Part shown: positions 1 through 17,901 of the stretch, piece after piece
Layout: every line of letters begins with the position of its first letter
How positions within the stretch are numbered: the stretch's first letter is position 1
Source of the DNA: Pyropia yezoensis
Taxonomy: Eukaryota > Rhodophyta > Bangiophyceae > Bangiales > Bangiaceae
Assembly (NCBI GenBank): GCA_009829735.1
Contig: CM020620.1
Location: 29,110,951-29,174,950 of the forward strand
DNA length: 64,000 nucleotides
Direction: 5' to 3'
The notes under the pieces: generated by a model
The model's database searches: none
What the model saw: the letters and a program-made list of their open reading frames with translations, nothing else
What the model was told of the DNA's origin: nothing
Made by a program: the position numbers and the translations under genes

Positions 1-2315
1 GTCCGGCTGAAGTATCCTACCGGACGTAGGTCCGGGATAACGTTATCGGTACCGATCAACGTCTCCCCCTGTAGCAGGGTGCATCCCACTTGGGTGTCGC
101 ACGCATCGACATCGATGACGAAGGTACCCCGTCGGTGCGGTAACGCAAGGACGGGTGGGGATAGTAGGGCTCGCTTCAGCGACTCGAATGCCTCCTCTTC
201 GCTAGGCGAAGGGGGTTGGAGTACCTTGGGCAGGGTACTGCTCGTAAGAACCGTTAACGGTTTAGCTATCCGAGCGAAGTCCTTGACGAACCGTCGGTAT
301 ACATTGCACATTCCCAGGAAGCTTTTGAGCTGCGTCTGGGTGTTAGGGAACCGGGCATCCCGGAGTGCCCGGGTACTGGCTTCGAGTACCCCTAGTTTAC
401 CAGGGGTTATCTGGTGGCCCAGATACTCGACCGTCTGTTGGAAGAAGGCGCACTTCTTCAGACGCAGGGTTACCCCGGCGTTCCTCAAGAGGGTGAGTAC
501 CTCGTCAACATGTTGCACATGGTCATCCATGTTACGCGAGAAGACGATGACGTCATCGAGGTACACTAGGCAGTTACGCCACTTCACCCCCGACAGTATA
601 ATGTCGATAGCCCGCTGGAATGTAGCGGGGGCATTGGACAATCCGAAGGGCATCCTTAGGAACTCGTACACTCCACTGTGACAGACGAATGCCGTCTTGG
701 GGATATCCTCGTCCGCCACCGGGATCTGCCAGTATCCGGCATTGCAGTCGATGGTGGTAAACACCGTAGCTTCCCCCAGGGAGTCGATGCATTCATCCAT
801 CCTTGGTAAAGGGTATGAGTCCTTCTTGGTAACCAAGTTGAGGCGTCGATAATCGATGCAAAACCGAGGGGTTTGATCCTTCTTCGGTACAATAACGACT
901 GGGGCACCCCACTCCGACATCGAAGGTCGGATCACCTTCGCTTCACTCATCCTCTTCACTTCTCCATCAACGATCTCTCGTTGCATAGGTCCCGCTCGGT
1001 GCGGTTGTGACCGGGCGGGGCGTGCGCCTGGTACCAGGTCAATACGATGTTGGGTTGCCCCAATGGTACCCAGGGCTCCGCCTGTCCACATGACGTCATG
1101 CTTTCTTAACATCCGTCGTACCCCTTCGGCTACGGAAGAAGGAAGGTGGTCGAGGTCAGCCTCGGCCAGTGCCTTCAATGCTTCTTGGTCCTTCGGCGGA
1201 ATATCCGCCGGTAATGATGGTCGACTAGGCTTCCCGTCATCGGGTTGCTGTTGCTCGGTGGTCTCGGCGACCGCCAGCACCTCAAGTGGGTCCACTTGAC
1301 CTTCCTTGTCAGGGGTAAGGATATCTCCTTCGTAGAGCTCGGCAATCCCGAGGATAGTTCCCTTCGGGAGGGTGACTGCCTTACGGCGATAGTTCGCCAT
1401 CACTAGGAGGGACGACCCTCCTGATGGGAGGTCTATGAGACCGTTGGCCATGGTCAACCCATGGCGCTTGTACGTCCGCAAGTTGGACTTGACTCTACAG
1501 ATGCCTGCGAGGTCACAGTTAACCGGGAGGACTGTCTCCGACAACGGCTCAAAGCGAGTTCGCTTTGCCAACCGAAGTGTCTTCGGCTCGACACTTGCGT
1601 ACACCTCAGCCACGTTAACGTGGCTCCCTTGTAGCGTCAGGTCCCTGACGATAGCCGTGTGTCCTCGCTTCGTCCCGTCGGCTTCTTGAAGCTCGACGGT
1701 CCTCCGGCCTGGCCGGATTGCATCAACGTGAACGTTGATGAAGGTGCACCCCAGTATGCAGGGCACCGATAGGGTCTCACACACCAGGAAGTCGACTTCC
1801 GTAGTGAGTTCCCCGATGGTCACCCGCAGCGACATCGCTGCAGTCGTACGAATGAGGCGACCATTCGCGTCCTTGATGGTGGGTCCCCGAGTCACTCTGA
1901 CTCGCGGAAGCCACTTGTCCGGGAGGGTATCCTTCCGGATAAGGTTGGGTCCAGCCCCTGTATCCAGTACAGGGTAGTACGATCGTGTCGACTGGGGGTC
2001 AACCCCCAGTGTGGCTGATACCTTGAAGTTCTCCAAGGTGAACAGTACGTGGCCTACCCCGATATCCGGTGTAGCTCGGGCATCCTGGACAGGGCCCTTG
2101 GCTGGTTCAACTTGACGGGACATCCCGTCCTCTCCTCCCAACCTTGGTGGTTGGTCATCAATCCCCTGACGCCGTGTCGTCGGGGCCGGAAGGTGTACCC
2201 GGGGGTTGATGCGGCGTCGGCTCAACCGCGCTCTCCGTGGGGCTTTCCCCGCGGTACTTCGGAGTGGCTTGCCTGGGTTACCCCAGCGCCCCCCGGTCAT
2301 CCTTCCTCTTACTCG
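1..2315 (-). CDS. pol: Pol polyprotein of element A, 3' part off window
   Basis: Ty3/gypsy pol reached by -1 frameshift from gag. Reading triplets from 2315 down to the window edge I found no stop. The aspartic protease motif LDTGAGPNLIRK is near 1945-1975. Reverse transcriptase follows, with FCIDYRRLN near 850, MPFGLSNAPATFQ near 640 and an intact YLDD box near 565. The tether and the start of RNase H (FVIDVDACDTQVGC) reach the left edge. The first in-frame ATG is at 2123, so internal initiation cannot be excluded. The order protease-RT-RNase H and the similarity to pol of element C (56950-60777) make the call secure. RNase H remainder, integrase and 3' LTR lie outside the window. Confidence 0.93.
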
Positions 2316-4492
2316 TTTCCCGCCCTTGGTAGGGTGCTGTCCGCCAGGCCATCCGGCTGAGGAGGTGCCTCCTCGACGGCCAGTACTCCACCTGGAGCTG
2401 GCTTCCTGCCCGGTGCGGGTCCGGGTGCTCTGGCGGGATACCCCCCTGTGGATGCCTTGCGTTGCGCCGCTGCCCTCCGAGACTCCTCGGGGATGAGTGG
2501 GCAGGAAGACACCCAGTGCTGGGGATCCCCACACAACATACATCCGGACGTGCCGGTCCCCCCTTGAGTTCGCATCGGGGTAGCCCCGTAGCTGCGGTTG
2601 CCTCCCTCGGGCGCCCGAGTGCCTGCTCCCTGGTAGGCCTTGGGTCCTTTGGTCAACAGGAACATGGACTCCCCCAACCGGTTGGGTCGGCCCGCAATCT
2701 GCGGAGGTGCCTCCGTGCGCACCGCCCATGTTGGCAAGGGTTGGTGAGGGTTACCCGTCACCGGGGAATACCCCGTAGTCCGCACATACGGGACGAGCCG
2801 TCCCGTTCCCTCGTTGACCTGGAACTGGGTCCCAGCCGGGGCGATGTACGCTACCGTACCGTGCTCATCAATCACCGGCGTCGCCGGTAGCAACAGGTGG
2901 CCCTGTTGGTCAACTAGAGGTTCATCCTCGCCCGTAGGGGTATGTTCGGTCGCCACCAGTACTGGTGCGGCCTTACGTTCCACCTTCTCTTGCCTCGGTA
3001 CCGGGGTAAGACTGGGTTTGCCTCCCTCACCCTTGGGCTTCGGGGCCAAGGTACATTCCGGGTGTAGCACCCTGTAGGCGTCCCCTAGGAACTTGTACAT
3101 GTGCATCAGTCGACTGAAGTTGGTCCGTGCCGTATTGGCTCCCCGTGCGGATATCCGCACGTAGTTGGGTACTCCTGCGAACAGGATGGCCCGTAGTTCC
3201 CCTTCACCGAGGAGCTTCCCCAGCTCGTAGTCGAGCTCTTGGATCCGGCGTCCAAACATCTCCTCATCCTCCCAGCTCTGGGCGGTGGCAGTGCGCAGGG
3301 CCCGGTAGTGGTCCTCGCACTTGTCCTCACTGAGGTAACTACTCAGCAGCTCCTTGAGAATCCCACGGTAATCCATGGGGGTGGCTGCGACCCTCATTCC
3401 CGGCATCGGGGATGCCTGGCGAAGAAGGCCTCGCACCCGTTCATCAACAAAGAACGGGAGGATCTCCAGCGCCAGCCCCTCGTTGACGAGCGCCTTGTCT
3501 GCGGCTGCCTTGAAGCTAGTCAAGAAGCCGATGACTGCCAACGGGTGTCCGTTTGGCCCCCCGAACATAGGGACTCCCTTCATAAGGGTCTGCATAGAGC
3601 GGATCGCCCGATGCGACGTATTACGCATCGATTCCGATGCGGTGGTAGAGCGGTCCTCCAAACGATAACGTTCGGGAGTCAAAACCGACCGGAAGACCTC
3701 GTTGGCGATCTCCGTGTCGGCGTCCTGGATATCCAGTCGCTTAGCTAGTTGATGAGCAAACTCATCGGACTCCATCCGCTTCAGTAGGCTCGCAGTTACC
3801 TGCGCGGTCATAGCTTCCACCACTGAAGATGGTACTTCAGGCGTCGGCACCTCGGGAACCCGAGTTGCCTGGCCTCCTTCGTCGTGGGGATACTGTGAGA
3901 GGGTACCCCCTCCGCCAATAACCGACTCTCCACCGGCGTAAGTATCCGCCGGGTCGTGTCCACGGAGTCCGCTTCGGGTGCTCCGAGCGTATTGCCCCGT
4001 GTGACTCCGTTCCAACTCTGCCGACGAGTCGGATCCATACCCCATTGTGTCCGGGGGTTGTCCAGGAGTAGCAACACCGGGGTTGACCCTGGTGGACTCC
4101 GAAAGTAGTCCGACCGTTTCGAACCGTACCGGTGTGCGAGGAACACGTCGGGGTCCCGTCGTGTGGCGTGTTGACATCAACACTGCCATTGCGTCCTCTG
4201 TCCGATCTTGACGGGCGTCGAGTCCGGAGAACCGGGCCTCGATGCGGGCCAATGATGCCATCAGGGAATCCCCTGGTGAAGGAGGCGGCGGAGTGAGGTC
4301 GGTCGATGACAGTTGAGGCGGACCCCCGCCTCCTGCCGTCCGAGCCGTGCCAAACGTCGATCCGGCACCGGAAAGCATTGGCGTCTCAATGTTGTCGATC
4401 GGGTTCCCGATCTCGGTTCCCGTAGTCACCTCCGGGGTCGGCGTCGACGCCGATCCGTCATCTTGAACGTTCCCCGTCTCTTGGGTAGACAT
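2309..4492 (-). CDS. gag: Gag polyprotein of element A
   Basis: Structural protein of a Ty3/gypsy element, expected to form the virus-like particle and bind the RNA. The ATG is at 4492; the frame stays open to 4498, but that upstream codon is GTG. A capsid-like block in the middle of the protein (FGGPNGHPLAVIGFLTSFK and onward) matches the gags of B, C and D. A CCHC zinc knuckle with C-x2-C-x4-H-x4-C spacing (CMLCGDPQHWVSSC) lies near residue 650. The N-terminal third is Ser/Thr/Pro-rich and low complexity. The frame ends in Gly-Asn-Glu and TAA, with the slippery site GGGAAAC across the last sense codons. The closest relative in the window is gag B (50171-52217). Confidence 0.92.
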   Translation of the reverse strand: MSTQETGNVQDDGSASTPTPEVTTGTEIGNPIDNIETPMLSGAGSTFGTARTAGGGGPPQLSSTDLTPPPPSPGDSLMASLARIEARFSGLDARQDRTEDAMAVLMSTRHTTGPRRVPRTPVRFETVGLLSESTRVNPGVATPGQPPDTMGYGSDSSAELERSHTGQYARSTRSGLRGHDPADTYAGGESVIGGGGTLSQYPHDEGGQATRVPEVPTPEVPSSVVEAMTAQVTASLLKRMESDEFAHQLAKRLDIQDADTEIANEVFRSVLTPERYRLEDRSTTASESMRNTSHRAIRSMQTLMKGVPMFGGPNGHPLAVIGFLTSFKAAADKALVNEGLALEILPFFVDERVRGLLRQASPMPGMRVAATPMDYRGILKELLSSYLSEDKCEDHYRALRTATAQSWEDEEMFGRRIQELDYELGKLLGEGELRAILFAGVPNYVRISARGANTARTNFSRLMHMYKFLGDAYRVLHPECTLAPKPKGEGGKPSLTPVPRQEKVERKAAPVLVATEHTPTGEDEPLVDQQGHLLLPATPVIDEHGTVAYIAPAGTQFQVNEGTGRLVPYVRTTGYSPVTGNPHQPLPTWAVRTEAPPQIAGRPNRLGESMFLLTKGPKAYQGAGTRAPEGGNRSYGATPMRTQGGTGTSGCMLCGDPQHWVSSCPLIPEESRRAAAQRKASTGGYPARAPGPAPGRKPAPGGVLAVEEAPPQPDGLADSTLPRAGNE
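2315..2321 (-). promoter_or_regulatory. Predicted -1 ribosomal frameshift site G GGA AAC
   Basis: The minus strand carries GGGAAAC set in the gag frame as G GGA AAC, followed by GAG TAA. This is a canonical X XXY YYZ heptamer, and pol is open in exactly the -1 frame from here through the protease ATG at 2123 with no stop. Element C has the same heptamer at the same place (56941-56947). A downstream pseudoknot was not tested. Confidence 0.8.
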
Positions 4493-4698
4493 AGTCACAA
4501 TCAGTCAACCGACGTAACAATCACCACGAATAAGAGAGCGAGGGGGTAGATTGGGGAGAGTAACAGTAGATCACAGTCAAAGGTAAAAACTCAACACAAT
4601 CGATCAGGTCGCAACACCACGAGTACAAGAAAAGGACCGGATCCCTATCCGTGTGCCAGGGCCGAAGACGGCGTCACCACAAGGGTGACGGAAACCCG

Positions 4699-4716
4699 TC
4701 CCCTGCTGCTCCACCA
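4699..4716 (-). other. Primer-binding site of element A
   Basis: The minus strand reads TGGTGGAGCAGCAGGGGA, which is complementary to a tRNA 3' end finishing in CCA. The same 18 bases follow the LTRs of elements C and D, and a matching site follows that of B. The primer tRNA was not identified. Confidence 0.85.
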
Positions 4717-4717
4717 A

Positions 4718-5080
4718 TGTAGCACAATAGGGATCCGTCGCACGTCCACTCTCAGGGAACACTCACCAAGGGGGATCGGCACCAACGTCACCGGGAGGCC
4801 AAGGTTGCTGTCCTTGGAGCGCAAGCCACGGGACCAAGATGGGAGCCCAAATGGGAGGGGTTTGTTGTTCTACCTTGGCCGGCGGTGGATTCGCCACCGG
4901 CCCCCTCGTTATAAACCCTCGGAGACACTACTAACTACCCTCCACCCCAAGATGCAAGTCCCTCTGGTCATACGTAACTTATAGATACCGTGACCAGTAC
5001 GGACTCTCAAATTGAAAGTTAAGGGTGAGAAGTAGCCCCCCTAATATTAGGGTTACAATACGGCCAACCATATTGCTACA
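4718..5080 (-). repeat. 5' LTR of element A (363 bp)
   Basis: On the minus strand the LTR begins TGTAGCAATATGG and ends in GCTACA, giving a six-base terminal inverted repeat TGTAGC/GCTACA. It is collinear and highly similar to the LTR of element B at 52444-52805, including the blocks around 4750-4840 and 4910-5000. The primer-binding site lies one base beyond its 3' end. Confidence 0.9.
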
Positions 5081-5244
5081 CCGACGTCCGCAAAATGTCA
5101 GGGATACAGCGTGGTGTCGCCCAGGGTAGTGGGGAATTGATGTGTCTTGGGGGGAGTTATCGGGGCCGGACATGTAAGGAGAGGTCCCAGTCCATATCCC
5201 CTGGGTTCCGGGTGGCGATTTAAGGGGCAAATCTTTAAACCTCC
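5081..5244 (-). repeat. 3' LTR stub of element E1
   Basis: Direct copy of 11491-11655 with few differences, lying directly after the pol frame and its purine-rich tract. The rest of this LTR has been displaced by element A. Confidence 0.85.
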
Positions 5245-5250
5245 CCCCCC

Positions 5251-8200
5251 TTAGGACGCGCGTCGAAGAAACGCGTCTAAAACTTCAGGGGCGTTCACAA
5301 GGCCTTGCTTTGTCAGCCAAGAGTTCTCGCTGATGTCGCAGCCTTTCCATTTGACGAGGTACTGCAGTCGTCCACGGCGCTTTCGTGACCGTATAATGGA
5401 GTCCACTTCATACTCGACCGAGCCATCCGGAAATGCAACCGGGGGTGGAACGGGTGGATCAGCGCGGCACGGCTTCAGGAGGCTGGCATGGAAGGCGCTG
5501 TGAACTCTGCGATCGAGGACAGCTTGAGGAAGATCGAGACGGAACGTGACGTCATTGATGCTCTCCGTGACTTTGTAGGGTCCGGAGTATTTTGGCATCA
5601 GCTTACGAGCGCCTTGAAAAGCGTCGGGCAAGAGGTTGTCGGTGCTGAGGAGTACGTGGTCGCCCACAGCGATTGTGCATGGTCGGCGATGACGGTTTGC
5701 GTACGCCGCGCGCGTCTCATTGGCGCTCTTGATGGCGGCGATAGCCGTCTTTTGAGCATCGTGGAGGCTGGATAGCCAATCCGACACAGCAGGAAGATTT
5801 GAGTCCCTGCTGTCGAGGATGTCCATAGGCACGGTCCTTGGGTCAAACCCGTAGTTCAAGAAAAATGGGGAGTACGTGGTTACGGCATTAGGCGACCGGT
5901 TGTACGCAACTTCCGCGCCAACGAGGAGAAGATCCCAGTCGCCTTGATGATGGTTGACGAAGTTTCTGAGGATTTCTTCAATTTTCTTGTTCATAATCCC
6001 AGTTTGGCCGTCCGTCTGCGGGTGGTAGGCCGATGAGGCTTTGATCTTGACCTTGAGGATCTTTGTCAGTGACCGCCAGAAGTTGGAGAAAAAGATGGGG
6101 TCGCAGTCACCGACGACTTCTTGAGGTAGGCCGTGGTTGTGATAGACGTGATCGTGGTAAAGCTGGGCTGTGACCGGCGCTGTACATTCCGGCTTCATTG
6201 GTGCCAGGCGAATCATCTTGGTGAGTCGGTCAACAACGACATAAATGCCGTTGTGGCCTCGTGGTGTCAGTGGCAGTGGGGTGATGAAGTCCATGGAGAC
6301 ACTTGCCCATCTTTGGCTTGGGGGTTAGAGTGGTTTGAGATGACCCAGAGGTGAATGAGTGCTAGCCTTGTTCCGCTGGCACGAATCACATGATTGTACG
6401 TATCTTTGGATGTCCTGCCGCATAGACTTCCAGTACTAATTGGAAGCAACGGCCTTGGTGGTTTTCTTCACTCCCATGTGCCCTTGGCACGGGACGTCGT
6501 GGTAGTCGTGGAGGAGTCTTTTGCGTAGAGTACCAGCGGGGATGCACGTACGGTCACCTCGTTTCAACAACTTCATATGAAACCGGTAGGGAGATACCGG
6601 GTCCTTGGCTAGGTCGGCAAATTCGGGGTCCCCTTTGTACTCTTGTTCTAGGGTGGCAAGGTCTTGATCACTTTGGTTGATGGTCATGAGGTTGTTGATT
6701 TCAGTTTTCTTGAGGGTTTCGTCAATGGTCTTGGTCAGCACGCGACTAAGGAGATCTTGGTTGGGTTCGTGCTTGTCAGGGGCATCTTGGGGTTGCCTGG
6801 AAAGGGCATCAGCTACGGCGTTGGAGATGCCTTTGATCGGGACAATCTTGAACTGGAATTGGTCCAGAAGTTCAAGCCACTTGACTTGGCGGTCGTTCAG
6901 CCTTTCTTGGGTTCGCAGGTATCTCAGGGACTCGTGGTCGGTATGGACCTCAAAGGGTCTTCCGTGGAGGTAGCAGCGCCAGTGCCGGATGGCTTGGACC
7001 ACTGCGAGCAGCTCACGTTCGCGGATGCTGTAGCGTTGTTCGTGGATATTCAAGGTCAGGGAGAAGAATGCCACTGGACGCCGTCCCTTTCCGTCGTCTT
7101 GTTCGAGGACTGCGCCAATAGCATACCCGCTGGCATCAGTAGACACGTAGATGGGATATCGTTTGTCAAAAGGCCTTAGTACCGGTGCACTTGCTGTCGG
7201 AGTCCGCAGCTGCTCGAAGGCTTTTTGGGCGTCCGGCGTCCACTCAAAGTCGACCTTCCCCGTCAACCTCGTAAGAGGGGTAGCAACTGCGGCCATTCCC
7301 TTGATAAATCGGCGATAGAAGATGACTATACCGAGGAAGGACTGCACGTCCTTCTTGCTCTTGGGGATTGCCCACGTCCGAATGGCTTGGACCTTCTGGT
7401 CCTCCATGGAAAAGCCTGCGTCAGATATGACGTGGCCGAGGTAATCGACAGTGGTTCGAGCGAATTGGCACTTACTTGCCTTGGCGTAAAGCTTGTGGTC
7501 TCGTAGCTTGGCCAGGGTTTTTCTCAGGTGCTTGAGATGATCCTCGTAGGTTTCGCTGTAGACCAAAATGTCTTCTCAGTAGACGAAGATGAAGTCGTAC
7601 AGGTAGGGTCTGAACACATCGTTCATTAAGTTCATGAAGACTGCGGGGGCGTTCGTCAGTCCGAAGGGTAGCACAGTAAACTCGTAGAATCCATACTTGG
7701 TCCGGAACGCCGTCAATGGGATGGTGTCATGGTCCAGCCGGATCTGGTGGTAGCCAGAGCGGAGGTCAATCTTCGTGAAATACTTGGCCTTTCGTAGTTG
7801 ATCAAAGATGTCATCGATACGTGGTAGAGGATACGCATTCTTGATGGTGGCCTTGTTCAATGCTCGGTAGTCGATGCACATCCGCCAGCCGCCGTCCTTC
7901 TTTGCCGCAAATAGAACGGAGGAGCCCCTTGGTGAGGCACTTGGCTGGATGAATCCCTTCCGAATCAGGGTCGCAAGTTGCGTCTTGAGTTCATCGAGTT
8001 CCCACTCGGAGAGGCGGTAAATACCGCTGCGACGTGGTTCAGCGTCGTCGGTCAGCTTGATGCTAAACTTGTGACTACGCTCGGGAGGGAGTCCGTCCGG
8101 AAGCTCAGCCGGGAAGACGTCAGCGTACTCCTTGAGAATCTGTTGGACTTCATTTTTGTCTTCAGCTTCTCCCATAATGATGGAGTTGCTGTCAAAGCTT

Positions 8201-8679
8201 CTTGAGGGGTCTTCAGACTGCAGGTAGATGGCGAATACAGGGGTCCTTTGGATGAGGTCACGTGCGAGTCGTTGCCGGCTAATGAGGCCCTCCGGTTTCT
8301 TGAGGGAGGCGGTGATAGAAATATTCTTGTGGTTGAACTTAAAGGATATCTTGTTCTTCTTGTTGTTGATCTTGGCGCCCTTGTCATCGCGCCATTTCTT
8401 ACCGAGGATAACGTCGTACGCACTGAGGTCGCATACGGTGAACCGTAGTCGTTCTTGGTAAAGGCCGATGTGAATCTCTAAGGGTTCAATGGTTTCAGCG
8501 AGTACATGGGAACGTCCATCGGGCATGTTTGCCGCGAAGTCCGTTTCAGTGGTCTTGACATTCAGGGTCTTCATGAGGCGCCTGGAGACGACGTTGATGG
8601 GAGACCCGTCGTCGAACAGCACCTTCACAACATGGCCATTGACAGAAGCAGTAGAAAGCAGTAGCCCGAGACGGGGCCT
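5251..8679 (-). pseudogene. pol: Pol of chromovirus E1 (protease, RT, RNase H, integrase, chromodomain), inactivated
   Basis: One minus-strand frame carries all domains. Protease has [11 protein letters not shown] where DTG/DSG is expected. RT has MCIDYRALN and [13 protein letters not shown], but the YxDD box is broken: a TGA at 7576-7578 replaces the residue after Tyr and the first Asp is Glu. RNase H has YVSTDASGYAIGAVL, HTDHESLRYL and NAVADALSR. Integrase has MDFITPLP and the second Asp (VGDCDP), but the catalytic Glu of DD35E is Gly (HPQTDGQTG). A chromodomain with YLVKWKG follows at the C-terminus. More stops lie at 8680-8682 (TGA), 6436-6438 (TAG) and 6325-6327 (TAA). Clearly a dead copy. 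Confidence 0.93.
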
Positions 8680-8749
8680 TCAAAGGGTGACGATTTGTTT
8701 TCCGGAACCAAAGGAGCATCTTTCACCGTTGTTGACGACGGTTGCTGCT

Positions 8750-9628
8750 TCAGTTCCGCTGGCATTTTGGGCAGTCCTTTGCCAGGTGCCCCTTTTCGCG
8801 ACAGCGGAGGCAGAGTCCCTCGCGCATACAGCGCTGGCGCTCCTCGGGCGTGAGCTTCTCGACCTTGATGCTGGAAATGTCCATGGGGACGACACCCGTC
8901 GCAGACGGCTTCCCAGAGGTGCTGCTGAGGTTGTTCGTGAAGCGCGAGGCTCCAGCCTTGGCAGCTTCTACGCGCAGGGCGTCTGTCATTAGAGGCTCGA
9001 GTTCAGTGTAGTTCTTGAGGCACAGTGCCTGCCAGATGTCCCGCTTCAGACCTCGCGTGTAGCGGTCAATCTTTTCCGCTTCAGTGATGTCTGGGATGTC
9101 CACGACGACGCTCAGGAAAGCCTTGTTAAACGTCCCGACGTCCTTAATCTGTCGCCATGCGTGCAGCTTGTCCCGTGCCGCCTGCGTCTTGTTCAGGGGA
9201 CTGAAGCGCCGGATGAGTGCAGCACGGAAGGCGTCCCAGCTCGAAACGTCTGTAGTCTGACTATAGGTATGGCACCAGTTGAACGCTTCTCCATCGAGAT
9301 AGGTGCAAGCGACACGACACGCTTCGGCGGGTTCACTCAGCCGGACGTAGGAGTCCATGTGGGAGCACCACGCTTCAATGGTCCCGGGTTTGTCAGAGAA
9401 CAGCCCGGGCTTGTTCGGCCGCGCGGGTTTTGCGGTCTCGCGGGCTGCTTTCGCCTTGGTCTCGGCGAGCTGCTGCTTCGTGTCTTCCAATTCCACCTTG
9501 TGTGCCTCGAGCTCGACACGCATTTGCGTCACAAATGTCGTAAGCTGATTCCATGCCTCGACACTGGGGATGCCGGATGTCGACCCAGAAGTGACCGGGG
9601 TCCCGCCAGCAATACTCGAGGGGTCCAT
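8750..9628 (-). CDS. gag: Gag of element E1
   Basis: The frame starts with ATG at 9628 and runs 292 codons. An N-terminal Glu/Lys/Gln-rich helical stretch (about residues 45-70) is followed by a retrotransposon capsid domain (AWCSHMDSYVRL through RFSPLN and WRQIKDVGTFN) and a C-terminal CCHC knuckle CLRCREKGHLAKDC. The E2 gag is a clear but diverged homologue. The pol frame overlaps the gag end in the +1 frame (open back to about 8895), so a +1 shift, as in Ty3, is the likely link. Gag has no stop and is the best preserved part of E1. Confidence 0.9.
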   Translation of the reverse strand: MDPSSIAGGTPVTSGSTSGIPSVEAWNQLTTFVTQMRVELEAHKVELEDTKQQLAETKAKAARETAKPARPNKPGLFSDKPGTIEAWCSHMDSYVRLSEPAEACRVACTYLDGEAFNWCHTYSQTTDVSSWDAFRAALIRRFSPLNKTQAARDKLHAWRQIKDVGTFNKAFLSVVVDIPDITEAEKIDRYTRGLKRDIWQALCLKNYTELEPLMTDALRVEAAKAGASRFTNNLSSTSGKPSATGVVPMDISSIKVEKLTPEERQRCMREGLCLRCREKGHLAKDCPKCQRN

Positions 9629-9926
9629 CGTTTCCAGGAGTTAACTCCAGGAGTTACAATTTCACCGGACAGAGCGACCTGGACTTACAAGAAATGCCCA
9701 GTCGAACTCCGGATAGATTTGAGTAAGAAATTTGGTCAAGCAACGTAGTGGCGCGCGACAATTGGTCAAGTGCCGAGGGATCGCGGTGACGAGATCAAGA
9801 GCGTGCAACACTATTTCGTTAAATCCAATCACAAGCAAATCGCTCGAGGGCGCGCAATCGGATTTTCGGTCGGCTTCCGCGCTCGGGCCCGAGTCGGTCT
9901 CGTCGGATTCTCACGCGGGGGGGAGA

Positions 9927-10388
9927 TCAGAGGGGGAAAATCGGGCTCTCGCGGTAGATCAATGGAGGTTGGCAATCGGTGCCCCGCGCCAGCTGGCGGT
10001 GGTGCGCCTTGCCACGCAAGTGGCTTTCAAATTGAATCACCGAATCAAATTCACGCCCACAGGGATCGCAGCGTGGGAGAGTGGAAGGGCGGTTGACAGT
10101 ATTGCGATGCCGACGTGAGTTGCGATGGTCGCGCAACACCGATAGGCTGTTGCACGTCACACCGCAGGGCTTACACTGGTGTGTGCCCAGTGGGATGCGG
10201 CGGGCCTTGGCGATTCGGCGCTGTTCGCGCTGTTCCACCGCCCGCGCGGTGGTCGGCTGCGTGCCCCCGGGTGGTGGTGCCCTCCCACGGGGCCGCGTGC
10301 CGACGGACTGCCGCGTGCCGACGAGCCGCGCGCTGTACCAGCGCCGCGGATCGTCGGGGGTGCGCGGGTCGTCGGGGGTGCGCGGGTC
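9927..10388 (-). CDS. Double C2H2 zinc-finger ORF upstream of gag in E1
   Basis: The frame encodes two fingers with identical C-x2-C-x12-H-x5-H spacing, starting CKPCGVTC and CDPCGREF. That spacing is typical of U1/matrin/JAZ-type fingers, which in known proteins often bind RNA, including double-stranded RNA. Basic residues precede and separate the fingers. The frame is open from 10388 to the stop at 9927 but contains no ATG, so translation needs an upstream spliced exon, a non-AUG start or a frameshift, or the frame has decayed. It lies 5' of gag on the same strand, and element E2 has a homologue in the same place. No such ORF is part of standard Ty3/gypsy elements; its function is unknown. 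Confidence 0.7.
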   Translation of the reverse strand, partial: DPRTPDDPRTPDDPRRWYSARLVGTRQSVGTRPRGRAPPPGGTQPTTARAVEQREQRRIAKARRIPLGTHQCKPCGVTCNSLSVLRDHRNSRRHRNTVNRPSTLPRCDPCGREFDSVIQFESHLRGKAHHRQLARGTDCQPPLIYRESPIFPL

Positions 10389-10714
10389 TCAGGGTTTCCA
10401 CGTGACGTGGCCACCGTGTTGCGGGCCGTCGTGCCGGAGGATGCCGACGCGGCCGCCACAGCCGAGGAAGAATATTCGGAACCTGATTTGGAACTCACTG
10501 GGATTCAACAATCGGTTGACCAAAAAGAAAAATTCCGTGACATCAAGCGCGATGGCAGTGTCAGGGAAATATTCTTTCGGTTTGATTCGTGGAACCCACT
10601 GCGTTTGTATTACAATGCCCGTGGCAAGCCGAACGCAGGGGGCAACACGACGTCACAATCGCAGGGAGGTCCAAATCACGCACGGAATCGCAGTCACCGC
10701 CAGGTAGAAAGTCG

Positions 10715-10732
10715 AACAATCGGAAGCTACCA
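10715..10732 (-). other. Candidate primer-binding site of element E1
   Basis: The minus strand reads TGGTAGCTTCCGATTG after the LTR, complementary to a tRNA ending GAAGCTACCA. Element E2 has TCGTAGCTTC at the matching place, one base different in the first ten. This is a different primer from that used by elements A-D. Confidence 0.5.
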
Positions 10733-10734
10733 CA

Positions 10735-11655
10735 TGTGAGGACCCACCTAAAACCGGGGAGCCCTCAACGTACTCGTGGGGGTGTCATCGGGCCCTGCGA
10801 GCCAATGGGGCGGCGGGGCACGGCGAAGAGGACAGTGGTCTCGACGGGGGTGGGTCTGGGGAAGAAGATGGGCGCGACGTCGGTGGGGATCGAGGGTACA
10901 AAAGGTAAACAGTGTCTTTGGTCTGTGTCTGTGGTTGCCCCTCTCGTCTCCCCCGGTGGCGCCGACACCCACGCATTATATACTCGCGTCGGGGCACCCG
11001 AGGTGCCCCAACGCATGCGTTTCCCCATCGCACCGCCGGTAGGCACAAAACGGCCCAAGAACAAAGCATGGCTCTCAGAACAAAGCATGGGCGGGCGTGC
11101 GCACTAAAGGAGTGCAGCCCCAGTTTGCCCGAAACGAAGGGGGTCCCGTGGATGGCGCCCAGCGCGCCCCACCAGCCGGCTCCACACGCCGATCGGCCAG
11201 AAGGTCCGACTGGCTGTAAGGGCCAGCAAGGCCAAATTCAATCAATCCAAAAGCCGGCGAGCCAGTCATATCGCACTCAGCCGCCAGCGAGGATGTGCGG
11301 TGTCCTCAGTGTCGGTGAATCATGTGACTGGTCCTTGATGCCAGCTTTCAAGCAGCGCAGGGAATAAAATTCAGGCAGCACAAACGGGGATGTCCGCCCG
11401 TGGTTGGTCGACGATGTCACTCGCTCCTCGTTGTCGAGTTTCGACGTCCATGACAGGGTTCCGACAGTGCGTTGACGGCGGCTTTCGTGCGGTCGGCCGA
11501 CGTCCGCAAAATGTCAGGGATACAGCGTGGTGTCGCCCAGGGTAGTGGGGAATTGATGTGTCTTGGGGGGAGTTATCGGGGCCGGACATGTAAGAAGAGG
11601 TCCCAGTCCATATCCCCTGGGTTCCGGGTGGCGATTTAAGGGGCAAATCCTTACA
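10735..11655 (-). repeat. Probable 5' LTR of element E1
   Basis: On the minus strand it begins TGTAAGGATTTGCC and ends in CTCACA. The first 164 bases match the 3' LTR stub. The part from 11108 to about 10761 is shared with a partial LTR at 15521-15881 and, more weakly, with the LTR of E2. A TATATA box lies at 10977-10982. The left boundary is inferred from the terminal ACA and the adjoining primer site and is less certain than the right one; an unrelated insertion inside it is possible. Confidence 0.6.
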
Positions 11656-11666
11656 CGGATCCTGCT

Positions 11667-12500
11667 TCAGTTCCGCCTCGCTTTTGGGCAGCTCCGAGCG
11701 AGGTGGCCCTTCTCCCGGCAGCACAGACGAAGTCCGTCGCGCATGCATCCCTTTCGCTCCTCGGGGGTCAGACGCGTCACTTGCACAGCAGAGATATCCA
11801 TCGGAGTCGACTCGGCCTTCGATACTGCTGCCTGGTACGCGTTGCTTTGAGCGCTGCTACGATAGCTTCCGAGTTTCGCCGCTTCCACCTTCAGCGCATC
11901 CAGCATGAGAGTCTCCACAGATTCGTACTGCTTGGTGCACAGGACTTCCCAGATGTACGACTTGAGTCCACGGCTGTACCGATCAATCTTCTCGGGCATG
12001 GTGATGCTCGGGATGTCCAGGACAATGGCCTGGAAAGTCTTGTTGTATGCTGTCACGTCCTTGATCTGCCGCCACTTGTGCAGGAGGTTCCGCGCCGCTT
12101 GTTCCTTGTTCAGGGGGTTAAACCGATGCGTCATGGCATCGCGAAGACTTGGCCAATCCGCTACAGCGCTTGAGGCCGCATAAGACTGGTACCATGCAAA
12201 CGCCTCACCTTGAAGATAAGTCTTCGCAATGGACAGGGCTTGGCCCGGATCCGTCCCAGCAAGATACTGGTCCATGTGGGATACCCATGCATCCACGGTC
12301 CCCAGCTTTCCAGAGAACGTGTTTGGCTTGTTCGGCTTGGGTCCACTTGGAGGTCGCACAACGTGTGCTTGCGTCGCCGTCAGCTGCTCCTTCAGTCTCG
12401 CCGTGTCGGCCAATAGGCTTTGGACATAAGAAGTAATTTGAGTCCATGCCTCAGGCGTCACAGTTGCAGAGCCTCCACCGCCGGCGTTACCGGACTCCAT
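11667..12500 (-). CDS. gag: Gag of element E2
   Basis: ATG at 12500, 277 codons. Same layout as E1 gag: helical N-terminus, capsid domain (AWVSHMDQYLAG, WYQSYAASSAVADW, RFNPLNKEQAARNL, WRQIKDVTAYN) and a C-terminal knuckle. The knuckle reads LCCREKGHLARSC: the spacing is kept, but the E1 residues C-L-R-C are here R-L-C-C, so the first zinc Cys is replaced by Arg. The frame ends about ten bases before the E1 insertion boundary, so the stop may be supplied by original E2 sequence or by the junction. Confidence 0.88.
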   Translation of the reverse strand: MESGNAGGGGSATVTPEAWTQITSYVQSLLADTARLKEQLTATQAHVVRPPSGPKPNKPNTFSGKLGTVDAWVSHMDQYLAGTDPGQALSIAKTYLQGEAFAWYQSYAASSAVADWPSLRDAMTHRFNPLNKEQAARNLLHKWRQIKDVTAYNKTFQAIVLDIPSITMPEKIDRYSRGLKSYIWEVLCTKQYESVETLMLDALKVEAAKLGSYRSSAQSNAYQAAVSKAESTPMDISAVQVTRLTPEERKGCMRDGLRLCCREKGHLARSCPKARRN

Positions 12501-12506
12501 GGCTTA

Positions 12507-13058
12507 GGCCTGCTTATGTACTGTCTTGATGTGGGAAAGGCCGCGCAGGTGGCGATAGTAGTGGGCGTCACTCTCAAACTCGCGCTTGCAGTCCACACAA
12601 TAAGAAAGACGAGGAGGGCTGACCTTGTTCTTGTGCCGGCGAGAGGCGCGGTGGTCACGCCAGTTGGATTCGCCGTAACAGGTCACGTGACAGTAGCCGC
12701 ACTTCAACTTGGGCTTCGCGATCCGTCCACTCGGGCCACGGCTCTCCACACGAAGGGCGCGTCGTTCCACGGCTCGCACGGTACGAGGCTTGACCGTGCC
12801 CACTTGGTGCGGTGCCGCCTTTTCTTGGTCCGAGGCAGGGCGACGAGGAAGAGGCGGAAGAAGTAGGCGACGTCCAGCCGCCGCGTCTGCTACACGGGGG
12901 GGTTCAGAGCGGGTCCCCTCCCCGGTCTTGGTATTCTTGTTCTCTGGTTCCACTGGTGATTGGGTAAGAACAGTAACGAGATAAGCATACAAGCACCCTT
13001 GCTGTGCCAGATCAACGCTCCTGCTCCTCGCGTCCCAAAGAAGACTGCCTTGATCCAG
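12507..13058 (-). CDS. Double C2H2 zinc-finger frame fused in phase to gag of E2
   Basis: Open from 13058 to a TAA at 12504-12506. Two fingers with C-x2-C-x12-H-x5-H spacing (starting CGYCHVTC and CVDCKREF) lie in the C-terminal half, as in E1. The N-terminal half is Arg/Pro-rich. There is no ATG in the frame. The gag ATG follows three bases after the TAA and is in the same frame, so zinc-finger and gag domains form one reading frame interrupted by a single stop codon. Stop readthrough, reinitiation at the gag ATG, or a once-continuous polyprotein with a nonsense change would all fit. Confidence 0.7.
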
Positions 13059-13559
13059 TTACGGGCACACGGCCACTGGACCAAGGGAGGCTGCTCTGAA
13101 GCGCTACGACCAGACTCGCTGTGCACTCCCTTGTAAGGGAAGGCCACTGGAGTGGGAGCTTACCAAGGCTTAGCCCGGGAAGGTCCACAGTCCAGTCACC
13201 TGCGGCCCTGTGGGGGACTGACCCGGTTCAGTTAGGGAGCACGAACCTCCCGGACCGAGCAAGCCTGCACAGAGACGCGTCGCAGAGGAGTCCAACCGTC
13301 AACCCACAGTAGTTACCCGCCCTGCGCGCGCGCGATGGTGCGCCCCGTTGGAACCGAACTGACCCCCCCCACCAGCAGCACGCGGAAAACTGGGGTGACG
13401 GGACGAAGGGAGCCCCGTGAGGGAAGACCCCACCCCGAATGGCACGATGGCCCGGTGGTTAAAGGCCAACCCGAAGACAGTGGGGCCTCGCGACAGACCC
13501 GGGGAGAGGCCGGCGAGCCCGAAGGCTGCCTTACCGCGCAAAAGCGCTCGGTATCGGGG

Positions 13560-13586
13560 GCGCACGCACGCACGCACGCACGCAGG
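13560..13586. repeat. CGCA microsatellite
   Basis: About six copies of the tetranucleotide CGCA/GCAC in tandem, just beyond the E2 LTR end. Confidence 0.85.
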
Positions 13587-13612
13587 GTAGGAAACTACCT
13601 GAAGCTACGAAA

Positions 13613-14101
13613 TGTAAGGTGAAGCGCAGCGAAGCGCCGTCCGCGACCGCACACTCGTGCTCGCACGGTCCCTCGCTCGCCACCTTACGCCCACCCTCAA
13701 CGCACGCGCGGTACGACGGCGGATAACCTACTCAGTGTCGGTCGGTCGCGCGCAACACGTGCGCGCGAAGAAGACGTCCGCGAAGAAGACGGGTGCGAAG
13801 GGGATGAGCTTGACGTCGGTCGTTCTCGGGTTCTAGGATTCAAAGGTGTTTATGTCGATGGGCTTGAGTCCTCCCTCCGTTCTCCACCCTCGGTCGCAGG
13901 CACGCACGCTTTTATACCCTCTGGCACACCCCTCGGGTCGCTCACAGGGCCCTCGGCGTAGTCCCTCTTGTTTGCCACACCAGGTGGTCCGAAAACGCAG
14001 GTCAGCACTCGTCGCGGCACACCCCCCTCTCAAAAGGGTCAATCCGAGGGGGTGGGCTACTTGCAAGATCGTTCTTGCATACTATTGGTAAGCACGTTAC
14101 A
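13613..14101 (-). repeat. Probable 5' LTR of element E2
   Basis: On the minus strand it starts TGTAACGTG and ends CCTTACA (inverted repeat TGTAA/TTACA). A TATAAAA box lies at 13916-13910. The stretch after the box (ACCTTT...GACGTC...TTCTTC) is similar to the E1 LTR and to the copy at 15.5 kb. Boundaries rest on the terminal motif and the adjoining primer-like TCGTAGCTTC at 13610-13601. Confidence 0.55.
13910..13916 (-). promoter_or_regulatory. TATA box in E2 LTR
   Basis: TATAAAA on the minus strand, followed by GCGTGCG. The related copies have TATATA at 10977-10982 and 15741-15746, so the position is conserved among three LTR-like copies. Confidence 0.55.
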
Positions 14102-14932
14102 CGCTCCCAAACGCTGTCCCAGAGGCTGGGAACGGGATATGCGATACTATTGGTTCCCGTCGAGCTATGGCAATTCCAGCACCATTATTGGCCTTCCATA
14201 ATGGGCCCTCTGGAGGGGTCCCAGGGCCACTGTAAGCCACGCATCCTGCCACGTGTCAAAATATATTGGTGGAAGATCTTTGGGGGGTTCAAGGTTCATC
14301 CGGAAGGCGTTCGAAGCTTTCTGAAGAATCTAGAATCCACAGGATGCGGTCCGAAGATCACAGATCAAGTACGGTTGTAGTTAGCATGACATCAGTGGCT
14401 TGACGACCGAATTGGATCAAGTAAGGGTCGAACCCTTACAGGAGCAGGGGGCAGTCACTTGGTGTGGGTGGGGGGAGGGGAGTGGGGGAACGTGCCGTGG
14501 CCGGCATGGGCGACCACGTGAACGTCTGATGGTGTGCCGAGGTGTGAGGCGAGTGACCAGGAGAGTGGAGGCGTCCATTGAAGGGGGGGGCCGATCTTGC
14601 TGATGACTACCACGCGTGACGGGGGCGGCAGTGCCTGCTGTGCGACCGGCCGCTCGGCGGTCGCGCTACAAGAAGACTCGGGGACAACCGCCGCCCGTCG
14701 GTCCATCTCTTTCCGCTCTTTTTTTGCACTGGCCGCCCTACACTCACGTTTGTATATATGTCGGGCCGCTGACTCTATCATGGCGCACTGCTTTCAGGAC
14801 GCTGGCGCTCTTTTATACTTTTGTACTATGATGCCCCAGCTCTGCGGTACGGCGAAGTATTCCAAGGAAAAAAGAAAACCTGGCCAAAGGGGATAAAAAG
14901 CCTTTGCTCTTGTACCATGTTCACAATAAAAC
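14102..14932. other. Intergenic DNA without a supported gene
   Basis: Contains a short hairpin at 14421-14439 (arms GTAAGGGT/ACCCTTAC). All frames are short or compositionally odd. It lies between the E2 LTR and the Harbinger remnant. Confidence 0.6.
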
Positions 14933-15520
14933 TCAAAGGTAGTGCTCCAAAAGCGCTGCGCGCTCCTTGAAGATGTCGGCTGCCAGGTAATTGCGCAAAT
15001 CCACGTGCGCGGTCTGGGTCCGCACCTCCCTCCACGCCTGCGCTGCCCGCAAAAAAGAGTCCTCAGGCAGCTGCCCCAGTGGCTGAACAGCTGGGGGAGG
15101 GTGCGCCAGAGGGTGAAGCCCCCCGTCAGCCCCACCGCCGGGTGACCCAACCCCGGCAGCAGCACTACCGGTTCCCCCCATCACCGCTCCCCCCCCAGCA
15201 TCTCTCATGCGCGCTCGCCGACGAGATAAACACCCGCCTCGACGTACCTTCGTAACCATGTTGTGCAAGATGGCAACGGCCTGCGCAACGACCATAACGA
15301 TCGATCTGCGGTTCTGAAAGGACTCCTGCATGCCCTTCGGGCACGCCCGCCACTCCCAATGCGAGCAGTCAAGCGACCCAATACAGCCTGGTACGCCCCG
15401 CTCCGCGCTCCGCTTCAGCAAGATCGTCAGCTCCTCCGGGTTCGGCTGCCGCAAGTAGTTTGGCCCAAGGATGCCCACAATGTAATACACCAGGTCTGCG
15501 AGGGACCACCCACACTTGGG
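14933..15520 (-). pseudogene. PIF/Harbinger transposase remnant with internal deletion
   Basis: The minus-strand frame contains GVPGCIGSLDCSHWEWRACP, the hallmark first catalytic block of the PIF/Harbinger (DDE_Tnp_4-like) nuclease, with the catalytic Asp in SLDCSHWEW. Shortly after, the frame jumps to AVAILHNMV, which in full-length family members comes after the second and third acidic residues, so the middle of the domain is missing. An Ala/Gly-rich tail of about 60 residues and a helical C-terminus follow. The N-terminal side is cut at 15520, where a partial LTR begins. The protein cannot be catalytic. Confidence 0.8.
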
Positions 15521-15881
15521 CAGCCCTCAACGTACTCGTGATGGTCTCAGCGACCCGTGCCAGCCAGTAGGGCGACAGGGTGCGGGGAAGAGGATGTAGA
15601 TGGTGGCGGTGGTGGGTCTGGGGAAGAAGACGGCGCGACGTCGGTGGTGATCGAAGGGGGTTCAAAGGGTTAATGTCGTCTTTGGTCTGTGTCTGTGGTT
15701 TCCCGTCCGGTCTCCCCCGGTAGCGCCGACACCGACCCACTATATACTCGCGTCGGGGCACCCGAGGTGCCCCAAAGCATGCGTTTCCCCGTCGCGCCGC
15801 CGGTAGGCACAAAACGGCCCAAGAACAAAGCATGGCTCTCAGAACAAAGTATGGGCGGGCGTGCGCAACGAAGGAGTGCAG
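15521..15881 (-). repeat. Partial LTR related to that of E1
   Basis: Strongly similar to 10761-11108, with the same TATATA box (15741-15746), the same CTCGCGTCGGGGCACCCGAG block and the same 16-base doublet containing AGAACAAAGCATGG. It interrupts the Harbinger remnant. Orientation is inferred from the E1 LTR. Confidence 0.75.
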
Positions 15882-15908
15882 CCTGTGAAATAACGAGAAA
15901 GTAGATAT

Positions 15909-15982
15909 CGGAGAGTCGGAATCGAACCCGGGCCCTTGAGAAGTATGCGGAATGGCGCGCTCAAACCACTGGGCAACCAGAA
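15909..15982 (-). tRNA. tRNA-like sequence, probably a tRNA-derived repeat or pseudogene
   Basis: The minus strand has a perfect box B (GGTTCGATTCC, 15928-15918) and a box A-like TTGCCCAGTGG (15976-15966) at normal tRNA spacing. The flanking bases do not form an acceptor stem and the T stem is poorly paired, so it is unlikely to be a working tRNA. It could be the head of a SINE. Confidence 0.35.
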
Positions 15983-17901
15983 CGGCTCCAGGTGGGGGGT
16001 GCGGCGGAGGTGGGGCCGCCGTGCGAGGCCATGGGAGCCGGGCGGGGGGCGGTCGGACGGGAGGGTGCCCCAGAACGCAGCAGGGCCGCCGGGTGCGGCG
16101 TCTGGGTGTCGAGGTTGCGCGGCCAATAGCAGGAGAGTACATGCACCCTGAAGATTTGCGGGGAACGCCTGTGGGCCATACGTTCATTGCTGGTGGGGAA
16201 AGTTAACCTGAAGGGTGGGACGGACTGGGGAATCGGGGGGGTCTAGCTCCACAGAAGGGTGGCACGGACTGGAGAATCGGAGGGGTCTAGCTCCACAGGG
16301 CGGAGTGCGTGCCTCGTTGTTCCTGTGGGTGGCACACGAGGCCAGCAATGAGGCTACCGTTGCAGAAGAACGTTGCAGCGTCGTCAGGCGAGGGGGCACC
16401 ACTGAGTGCCGTTGTCGACCCGATTCTCACGTGTGACTGGCACAGTGCTGGCGCTTGAAGGTGGTACCAGGCGATGACGTCACGTCCAGAAACGCCACCT
16501 TGGGCGCCCATTTCTTGCCACACGGTTGCTTCGAACTTATCTTAGTCGAAGAAAACATACGACTTCGTGCAGAGAGTACTGTTCTGCAAACGAAGCGCGA
16601 ATATGTGTCAAAATGCCACGTGTGAAGGTCGATTCGGGCTGAAATGAATAGTCCATTGACTATCGGCGTGACTAACGGGGCCTCCGTTGGTCACGCCGAT
16701 AGTCAATGGACTGTCGGAGAGCCATACGAGCGCCCACGAGGCACCGATGACTTGACATAAATATTACAAACTACACTCGCTACAAACGACGTTTTTGGAC
16801 CGTTTTAGTCATCGTGACGTTGCTGAAGAGCTCACTCTGTGCCACGTTTAGTTCCGAGCGCCACGTGTTGCTCACGTGGCACGATTATGGGAAGACATGC
16901 GCCGTTGGTCACGTTGGTGGGTACGCCCTCACCCGTTGCGTTTGCGAGCTGCTGGCGACGCTCGCTCACCCCCAGTTAAGCCGGCCTGAGAGCGGACTCA
17001 AGGGTTCAGAGCGATTTCGCGTCAACCATTGGCCCATAGCTCGGAGTCAGGAGGAAACTTGCCATATACTGAACATGTATAAACTATTCCAGGCTTCGTA
17101 GCACGTGTCACAAGGAAATCGAGCATGGTCGCAAAGAGCATCATTGGAAAAGGACTCAGGTTGCAAATATACATCAGAATGTGGCCTTTTCTCACTGTGA
17201 TGGCTCCAAATCTACTGCTTGTAGCACTGATTGGAGCGCACGGTCATCAACACTATGAAAACAATTGTGAAACACATATATGCTCTGAACCAACGCTGAA
17301 CCAACGAGAATCATCAACATGTCTTATATGCTTAAAACAGCGCTCATAATGGTGCAGGTTATGGTGCTCGCAAAGAACGCGAACAGGCGCTTCCTCATCT
17401 GGCATGTAATGGTCTGTACTCGTTGTTCCATATTGGTTGCCTTGGAGATGTTTGGTTATCCAACGGAAATATCTGATCAAGCCAGAAGTCGTTTGAATGC
17501 TGTACGTGTCTGATGTAATCCATATTCGCCGCTGAACCCTGGTGTCCACTCTATGGGTGCGCTGCCAGCCCCTTCGATTGCGTCTGCTGTCGCCTCCGCG
17601 AGTTGTCCTCTGCCTGCGCGGGCGTCCGCGCGCGTCCGCGTGCTGCCCCCTCCAGTGGCTGCCACCCCCCGTCCACCACAATTGTGAGATGCTGCACCCA
17701 CCCCCCCCCCCGCCGATTCACTCACGACATGCTGCTGCGCGCCTGTGAAGGCCCCGTCTTCTTAGTGCTTACGTTGCGGGTCCCTGCGCTCCGCTCCATC
17801 GCGCTGTGTGCGTGCCGGCTTCTTTCATGCGAGACCCTACGACAACGTCTAGACTCCGCTGCGTCTATCGTCGTTAAACGCCATCCGCTCGGGCCGCGCA
17901 G
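15983..17901. other. Intergenic DNA; no supported gene
   Basis: Holds a near-identical tandem of about 55 bp around 16214-16300 (repeated CGGACTGG and GGGGTCTAGCTCCACA) and the hairpin at 16650-16712. Base composition falls to about average around 16.5-17.5 kb. No frame here shows a recognisable domain. Confidence 0.6.
16650..16712. repeat. Perfect 23-bp inverted repeat (hairpin)
   Basis: Left arm 16650-16672 (from AGTCCATTGACTATCGG) is the exact reverse complement of 16690-16712. Five more pairs (AACGG/CCGTT) inside the loop extend the stem after one mismatch, leaving a five-base loop. It could be a fold-back element, a small-RNA precursor or a transcription-stop structure; no coding region overlaps it. 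Confidence 0.9.

Follow-up and report, generated by a model that had tools for sequence, protein, structure and literature searches.

A conserved two-finger gene 5' of gag in Ty3/gypsy elements of Pyropia yezoensis and its predicted splice-assembled start codon

Long terminal repeat (LTR) retroelements are usually described by gag and pol, and a frame that lies upstream of gag and holds no ATG raises the question of whether it is a gene at all and, if so, how it is translated and what its product does. The case arises in a 64,000-nt stretch of the red alga Pyropia yezoensis (GenBank assembly GCA_009829735.1, contig CM020620.1, positions 29,110,951–29,174,950; hereafter the window), in which two elements, E1 and E2, each carry an open frame with two C2H2 zinc fingers 5' of gag. 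A preliminary description, made from the letters of the window alone, had pointed out these frames and suggested roles in RNA packaging, reverse transcription or blocking of host silencing; we confirm the observation, and the interpretation is partly supported. The finger frame is a conserved accessory gene 5' of gag, under purifying selection between families. For its expression we consider it probable that, in a Ty3/gypsy group of which at least one family has a chromodomain, the start codon is split by an intron, A|UG would be made by splicing, and spliced RNA would yield the finger protein and unspliced RNA Gag.

Read from stop to stop, the frames occupy 9927–10388 in E1 (153 aa) and 12504–13058 in E2 (184 aa), on the minus strand like all parts of the two elements given below, and neither contains a methionine. 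Both fingers of both frames have exactly the spacing C-x2-C-x12-H-x5-H, by motif and by Pfam match, with fingers 1 and 2 at 10107–10175 and 10002–10070 in E1 and at 12633–12701 and 12531–12599 in E2. A Retrotrans_gag open reading frame (ORF) follows each of them: E1 gag at 8750–9628, with its ATG at 9628 (Retrotrans_gag 2.4e-13, Ty3_capsid 2.9e-11 and zf-CCHC), and E2 gag at 11667–12500 (E 1.1e-12). The frames are thus real, and their boundaries as first drawn need revision. The window copy of E1 (9930–10388) is defective: about 217 nt that other copies have inside the finger ORF are absent, which breaks the frame, and its end lies 15 residues beyond that of the 249-aa frame typical of E1 copies, so that the N-terminus first assigned to it is not native. 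For E2, translation is predicted only for 12507–12952, which runs into the stop at 12504–12506.

To place the frames in the genome, 107.5 Mb in 11 contigs were searched, three of the contigs being large (43.6, 34.3 and 29.4 Mb); a large contig also gave one match to a phycobilisome family, which agrees with a red-algal host. E1 finger DNA has 97–100% matches at 40 places, itself included (best 40 of 193 candidates), and E2 finger DNA has matches of 95–100% at 14 places, itself included, and one of 69%. The two finger protein queries gave the best 150 of 248 and the best 150 of 276 candidate places, and in the latter set the matched block is stop-free in 141 of 150 matches (rows counted by hand); a single TAG seen in the matched block of one family turned out to be an ordinary stop codon. 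At least seven families are represented among the matches read: group A comprises E1, C, D and K, group B comprises E2, E and F, and an eighth, G, is present as fragments. Open finger frames of 176–261 aa are found in most intact copies. Twelve copies without a finger-pattern match (L013, L014, L024, L025, L029, L030, L043, L066, L067, L071, L073 and L074) were left out of the copy tables; the donor, acceptor and ATG tables used a slightly wider finger pattern. The frame recurs widely, so it is not a host fragment found only in the window. In IMG/VR, 21 pattern matches to possible relatives were obtained, none of which was confirmed.

The position 5' of gag recurs as well. With a piece of E1 gag as query, 123 of the 150 listed gag matches have a finger from the best 150 of 276 within 1.6 kb, and three more have one from the other query's list (best 150 of 248), which brings the count to 126 of 150. 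Beyond those three, two of the 27 matches initially without a listed finger have an exon-2 start about 1.2 kb upstream (not included in the 126), and the remaining 22 could not be read. With a piece of E2 gag as query, a finger is nearby in 28 of 33 rows (best 34, one group A row left out). In the opposite direction, the compared lists hold no gag for three of the first 65 E1-type fingers and for 9 of 37 E2-type fingers. The finger frame is the same as the gag frame in E2, L063 and L070 and differs from it in the window E1, L038, L057, L058, L060, L062, L031 and L075; with the two in different frames in 8 of the 11, an extension of Gag was rejected.

The finger frame has been kept while the elements around it diverged, as the preliminary description had supposed. 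The finger blocks of E1 and E2 are 42% identical as protein, and E1-family gag copies are 55–58% identical to the E2 gag piece. The conserved block of about 120 aa comprises an LLLPP motif, a basic stretch and the two fingers, and 23 columns, including all eight zinc ligands, are invariant across the seven family representatives. Within groups, the ratio of nonsynonymous to synonymous substitution (dN/dS, NG86) of the finger ORF is 0.13–0.41: 0.35 for E1-C, 0.41 for E1-D, 0.15 for E1-K, 0.30 for C-D, 0.13 for C-K and 0.17 for D-K in group A, and 0.24 for E-F, 0.39 for E2-E and 0.29 for E2-F in group B. The finger block alone gives 0.18 (E1-C), 0.26 (E1-D), 0.15 (C-D), a D-K value within 0.15–0.26, 0.22 (E-F), 0.35 (E2-E) and 0.43 (E2-F), and is saturated in E1-K and C-K; pairs across the groups are at 0.21–0.57 or saturated. 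Gag is at 0.11–0.14 for E1-C, E1-D and C-D, in a set that lacks gag of families E and K and of one E2 copy. Mismatches between E1 and C also follow the codons of the ORF (47, 45 and 93 by codon position) and are flat in the predicted intron (12, 20 and 11), so that codon periodicity is present after the predicted junction and not before it. A functionless, decaying exon captured from the host would fit the broken E1 copy of the window and the lack of a selection signal between near-identical copies; given the several families, the 141 stop-free blocks in the 150 matches and a between-family dN/dS far below 1, we regard it as highly improbable.

The preliminary description had placed the fingers in the U1/matrin/JAZ class, which stands for two of the Pfam families compared and falls short for the third. 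At curated cut-offs of 21.2 bits for zf-met and 22.6 bits for zf-C2H2_jaz, E1 scores 49.1 and 43.5 and E2 24.1 and 31.3, and the five further families are above both cut-offs, making seven in all. The cut-off of zf-U1 (22 bits) is not reached by E1 (7.2 bits), and E2 is not listed for that family. A profile of the seven families matches PDB 1zu1 (ZFa, whose fingers bind double-stranded RNA) at E 3.1e-5 over the whole chain with one stretch per finger, the single stretches being weak (E 0.06 and 2.7). Unlike ZFa, the finger protein has two fingers only, is borne by a retroelement and has its own LLLPP and basic N-terminal block. Four copies have predicted products of 149–259 aa with a pI of 10.2–11.8, among them that of the E2 family copy L021 (149 aa, computed pI 10.2). 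The finger protein is probably RNA-binding.

How could such a gene be translated? The absence of methionine holds well beyond the two frames of the window: among 54 distinct copies, the stop-to-stop finger frame has none in 43, one in 9 and two or three in 2, and the scarcity is a property of the whole leader. In one chosen copy per family, the stretch from the predicted acceptor to the gag ATG (976–1125 nt) has no ATG in E1, C and D, for which 12.8, 11.5 and 11.4 are expected, and 0 of 2000 shuffles are as low. The other trinucleotides made of one A, one T and one G occur often there, TAG excepted, and gag itself has a normal ATG count. The 25 group A copies with a gag ATG found, damaged ones included, hold 33 ATG in 27,429 nt between frame start and gag; 11 of these copies are free of ATG, 7 have one, 4 have two, 2 have five and 1 has eight. 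On unspliced group A RNA, gag is hence the first AUG in the best-kept copies, bar a two-codon upstream ORF (uORF) and a further short uORF in the E1 leader. An in-frame ATG upstream in intact E1 copies was rejected as the start, as a stop intervenes before the frame and family C does not have that ATG. The E2 leader of the window has one ATG, which is absent at that place in two aligned copies.

Sequence comparison offers a candidate start at the beginning of the conserved frame, where an in-phase YAG|TG is found in seven families (CCCAG|TG in group A, CACCAG|TGG in E2, CCTTAG|TGG in E and TTCACAG|TGG in F), with an in-frame TGA three codons upstream of the GTG in group A, L070 excepted. A matching donor lies in U5: A|GTACGT in E1, C, D and K, A|GTAGGT in E2, A|GTGCGT in E and A|GTACGC in F and G. 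At each of the 41 donors found the exon ends in A, under a search pattern that put no constraint on that base, and exon bases −2 and −3 vary. The 54 copies have a donor in 41 cases, an in-phase acceptor in 41 and both in 31. When conserved GT dinucleotides were scanned in five group A copies, only A|GTACGT had a preceding A and a following RxGY in all of them; L069, in which the donor is changed, was omitted from this alignment, and with L069 in, the donor column is unlisted. Joining the sites creates an in-frame ATG at the head of the conserved frame (MSSKSGSEY in E1, MGAKSGSEY in D, MEPENKN in E2, MAPNQTT in E and F), and the 150 nt upstream of the donor hold no ATG in 8 of 8 copies. The predicted intron measures 259–279 nt in group A and 753–779 nt in group B and is T-rich in group A (28–32%, vs 18–21% and 11–15% in the exons).

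In the window, the E2 coding exon (12507–12952), predicted from the open frame and the in-phase AG|TG, would receive its A|TG across an intron of 779 nt at 12953–13731, with the donor A(13732)|GTAGGT and the acceptor CACCAG|TGG read by sequence comparison. This intron holds the primer-binding site (PBS, 13601–13610), assigned by position and likeness, which is TGGTAGCTTC in most relatives and has one mismatch in the window copy. The corresponding E1 intron is put at 10498–10773 (276 nt; donor A(10774)|GTACGT, acceptor CCCAG|TG) and holds the PBS at 10723–10732; its acceptor was read from the sequence by comparison with other copies and is not in phase, because the frame of the window copy is broken. 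We infer splice and junction AUG from comparison: taken one by one, these facts do not prove splicing, and together they are hard to explain otherwise.

Some other sites were encountered along the leader. Most group A copies have ATG-TGG-TAG at the LTR/PBS junction, which is the two-codon uORF (window 10727–10735, minus strand), and aligned group B copies mostly have ATT there. Splicing from this LTR/PBS ATG was rejected by hand, as its phase is wrong for the acceptors. Matches to the predicted junction (3 and 25 places, at two mismatches) read as starts of exon 2 in unspliced form, and one of these (C3:6579373) has an ATG in the genome at that point. Upstream of the predicted acceptor, the E2 leaders of L022 and L023 carry two extra CCAG|TGG sites, which are possible alternative acceptors.

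The main rival for expression dispenses with splicing: a few ribosomes would start at the conserved GUG, or at another near-cognate codon, and the rest would scan on to the gag AUG. It draws on the poverty of the leader in AUG in all frames and on the GTG codon with which the conserved frame opens in the seven families whose start can be read. GTG is a weak start codon, and its context at −3 is poor in most families (CCA, TTA) by the usual context rule. The AG|TG acceptor accounts for the conserved GTG as well, so that GTG alone is not diagnostic of a near-cognate start, and initiation at GUG leaves unexplained the YAG before the TG in copies other than the three E copies described below, the T-rich stretch and the U5 donor with its invariant A. 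A precedent, according to parts of PMC5902531, is rice tungro bacilliform virus (RTBV), in which ORF I starts at AUU and ORFs I and II have no internal AUG. The resemblance to RTBV and badnaviruses consists in long AUG-free ORFs upstream of a main ORF, and an upstream ORF free of internal AUG behind a leader free of competing AUG is found strongly in group A and weakly in E2, E and F; RTBV ORF I is read from the same RNA, whereas the AUG of the finger gene is predicted to come from splicing (PMC5902531, in part). Overall, we consider the GUG route unlikely, though it deserves serious attention.

The splice-made start codon would operate as follows. Transcription from the LTR would give one RNA, whose exon 1 (R-U5) would end in A before a GTRNGY donor and whose exon 2 would begin with TG after a YAG acceptor, and the join would place A|UG where the conserved frame has its first residue. 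The spliced RNA would lose the PBS, gain the AUG and encode the basic double-finger protein, and the unspliced RNA, on which gag would be the first substantial AUG, would be translated into Gag(-Pol) and also serve as the genome. In E2, the gag ATG (context GCCATGG) comes straight after the finger stop, as stop-GCC-ATG, and with an AUG only three bases beyond the stop the spliced RNA could make some Gag by reinitiation. As a weaker step, the finger protein may act on its own unspliced RNA, by promoting its export or by keeping it from being spliced, in the manner of Rev and CERV.

A number of observations speak against this model. The donor pattern was defined after the alignment had been seen, and it fails in 13 of 54 copies, among them L022, L023, L026 and L075, for which only the flank is at fault, and L033, L046, L057, L069 and L072, in which the donor is changed. 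In the group B alignment, RxGY also follows two other conserved GT in 5 of 5 copies, without the preceding A, and the E2 donor is displaced by three columns. The near-identical E copies L034–L036 (C3:27.76–27.82 Mb) have CG in place of the acceptor AG and keep GTG and the open frame; both decay of the cluster and initiation at GUG are in keeping with this. Family F has an in-phase acceptor in L076 alone, apparently an E/F mosaic; in L062/L081 and L082 the acceptor is out of phase, and these two places carry a 25-nt duplication. The predicted intron is less clearly T-rich in group B, being barely richer in T than exon 1 in F, and its G+C in group B is no lower than that of exon 1. No spliced genomic copies were found with the two junction patterns, one for E1/C/K and one for D. 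The ATG depletion is weak in group B, where E2 has 0 vs 2.5 expected between acceptor and gag (P 0.08) and E and F give P 0.12–0.37, with the same sign as in group A and 4 ATG in 6 copies; in group A the copies with no ATG belong to the better-kept ones, and the others have 1–8. Near-identical copies carry no selection signal, with dN/dS of 1.50 for E1-E1b (12 differences) and 0.98 for E2-E2b (16 differences). Gap lengths in the ORF are mostly not multiples of three (2 of 11 are in E1-C, 5 of 19 in E1-D), so that only E-F, with 1 of 1 in the ORF vs 3 of 12 in the predicted intron, supports the frame by its gaps. Finally, the top PDB profile match by summed score is to the DNA-binding fingers of PRDM9, and Foldseek on an AlphaFold model (pLDDT 74, 2 sequences) gave 0 matches at E <= 0.001; sequence and fold methods cannot separate RNA- from DNA-binding for these fingers.

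What would the protein do? The closest studied case is CERV of Cer1, an LTR retrotransposon of C. elegans, which by the relevant parts of PMC10309623 is made from spliced mRNA and needed for export of the genomic RNA. CERV is likewise an accessory nuclear regulator from a spliced retrotransposon mRNA, and its Cys-rich loop may be an RNA-binding zinc finger; it differs in being large, with other predicted domains and no known relative (PMC10309623, in part). Unlike CERV, the finger gene lies in the leader 5' of gag and has C2H2 jaz-like fingers and a start predicted to be splice-made. To Rev, as portrayed in parts of PMC10309623, the predicted likeness is that of a small basic RNA-binding protein from spliced RNA with unspliced RNA as its target; fold and place are different, and an export role of the finger protein is conjectural. 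A Rev/CERV-like function is a guess. Regulation of the element's own RNA seems to us somewhat more likely than roles in packaging, reverse transcription or anti-silencing, which the protein may also have, because the gene is predicted to come from a spliced RNA without the PBS, because CERV comes from a spliced RNA and is needed for genomic RNA export, and because the fingers match jaz and, weakly, ZFa.

Two other functions compete with regulation of the element's own RNA. As a silencing suppressor, the main rival for function, the finger protein would hide or sequester double-stranded RNA of the element, whichever way it is expressed; the Pfam name of the jaz family refers to binding of double-stranded RNA and the protein is small and basic (pI as above, four copies), but anti-silencing alone needs no splice-dependent start, and such a role appears rather improbable. 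Still less likely, in our view, is a later step, in the form of packaging, a nucleocapsid-like chaperone or integration targeting through DNA binding. The fingers do also match DNA-binding C2H2 arrays; against this, Gag already has a CCHC knuckle (above the cut-off in E1, below it in E2), E1 pol has a chromodomain, and the finger frame is other than the gag frame in most copies compared.

The full circuit, in which the whole Ty3/gypsy group uses a splice-assembled start codon as a switch and the JAZ-like product feeds back on unspliced RNA through export, splicing or protection from silencing, is a tentative proposal that we hold at somewhat less than an even chance. If true, a Rev/CERV-like circuit evolved independently. 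One retroelement transcript must serve as genome and as messenger, and a start codon absent until the RNA is spliced would, if true, be a clean solution that can be read in the DNA; elements commonly regarded as gag-pol only would also gain, in an under-studied branch of eukaryotes, a conserved accessory gene whose product probably binds RNA. For annotators there is a caution that a frame may be conserved, and a genuine gene, even when it holds no ATG. In searches of one open-access library, we found no description of a splice-made or split start codon for a retroelement, or of such fingers in retroelements. Additional ORFs of plant LTR retrotransposons are comparable as extra conserved genes (PMC7264820 and PMC9289625, in part); unlike the finger gene, those in the relevant sections of PMC7264820 lie between pol and the 3' LTR, and its main text uses neither of the terms 'zinc finger' and 'upstream of gag'. 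In BARE1, splicing also divides two uses of a retrotransposon RNA, but the splice is at the end of gag and makes Gag only (PMC3735527, in part).

The remaining features of the window concern the elements and their neighbours. By its gene order of gag, protease, reverse transcriptase (RT)-RNase H, integrase and C-terminal chromodomain (Pfam), E1 is a Ty3/gypsy chromovirus; this order was examined in E1, and E2 and the other families were covered for gag only or not at all. E1 pol lies at 5251–8679 in three separate open pieces with protease (RVP_2, 24.1 bits vs a cut-off of 20.3), RT, RNase H, integrase (rve core, 23.2 bits, under its cut-off of 32.6) and Chromo (1.7e-13). The RT carries a stop at 7575/7576 (minus strand), near the active-site region, and with RT thus interrupted the window copy has a damaged pol in addition to its damaged finger gene. 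Its 5' LTR and PBS are present, and no 3' LTR was found in window 1–16000. The E2 LTR has a TATA-like box, GTATAAA, at 13911–13917.

A 160-nt piece of the E2 gag region occurs at both 5081–5240 and 11497–11656, 98% identical and 6416 bases apart, and neighbouring E2 copies on C2 are spaced at 6447 and 6459, close to that distance; E2 elements seem to form head-to-tail arrays, with E1 between the pieces in the window. A 731-aa open frame at 2309–4504 (minus strand) has a CCHC-like motif, CMLCGDPQHWVSSC, near its C-terminus and looks like a gag-like protein of another retroelement. Finally, the open frame at 14933–15526 (minus strand) presumably resembles a Harbinger-type transposase, and adjoining it is an LTR-like copy (15497–15883) that is 74–90% like the E1 LTR.

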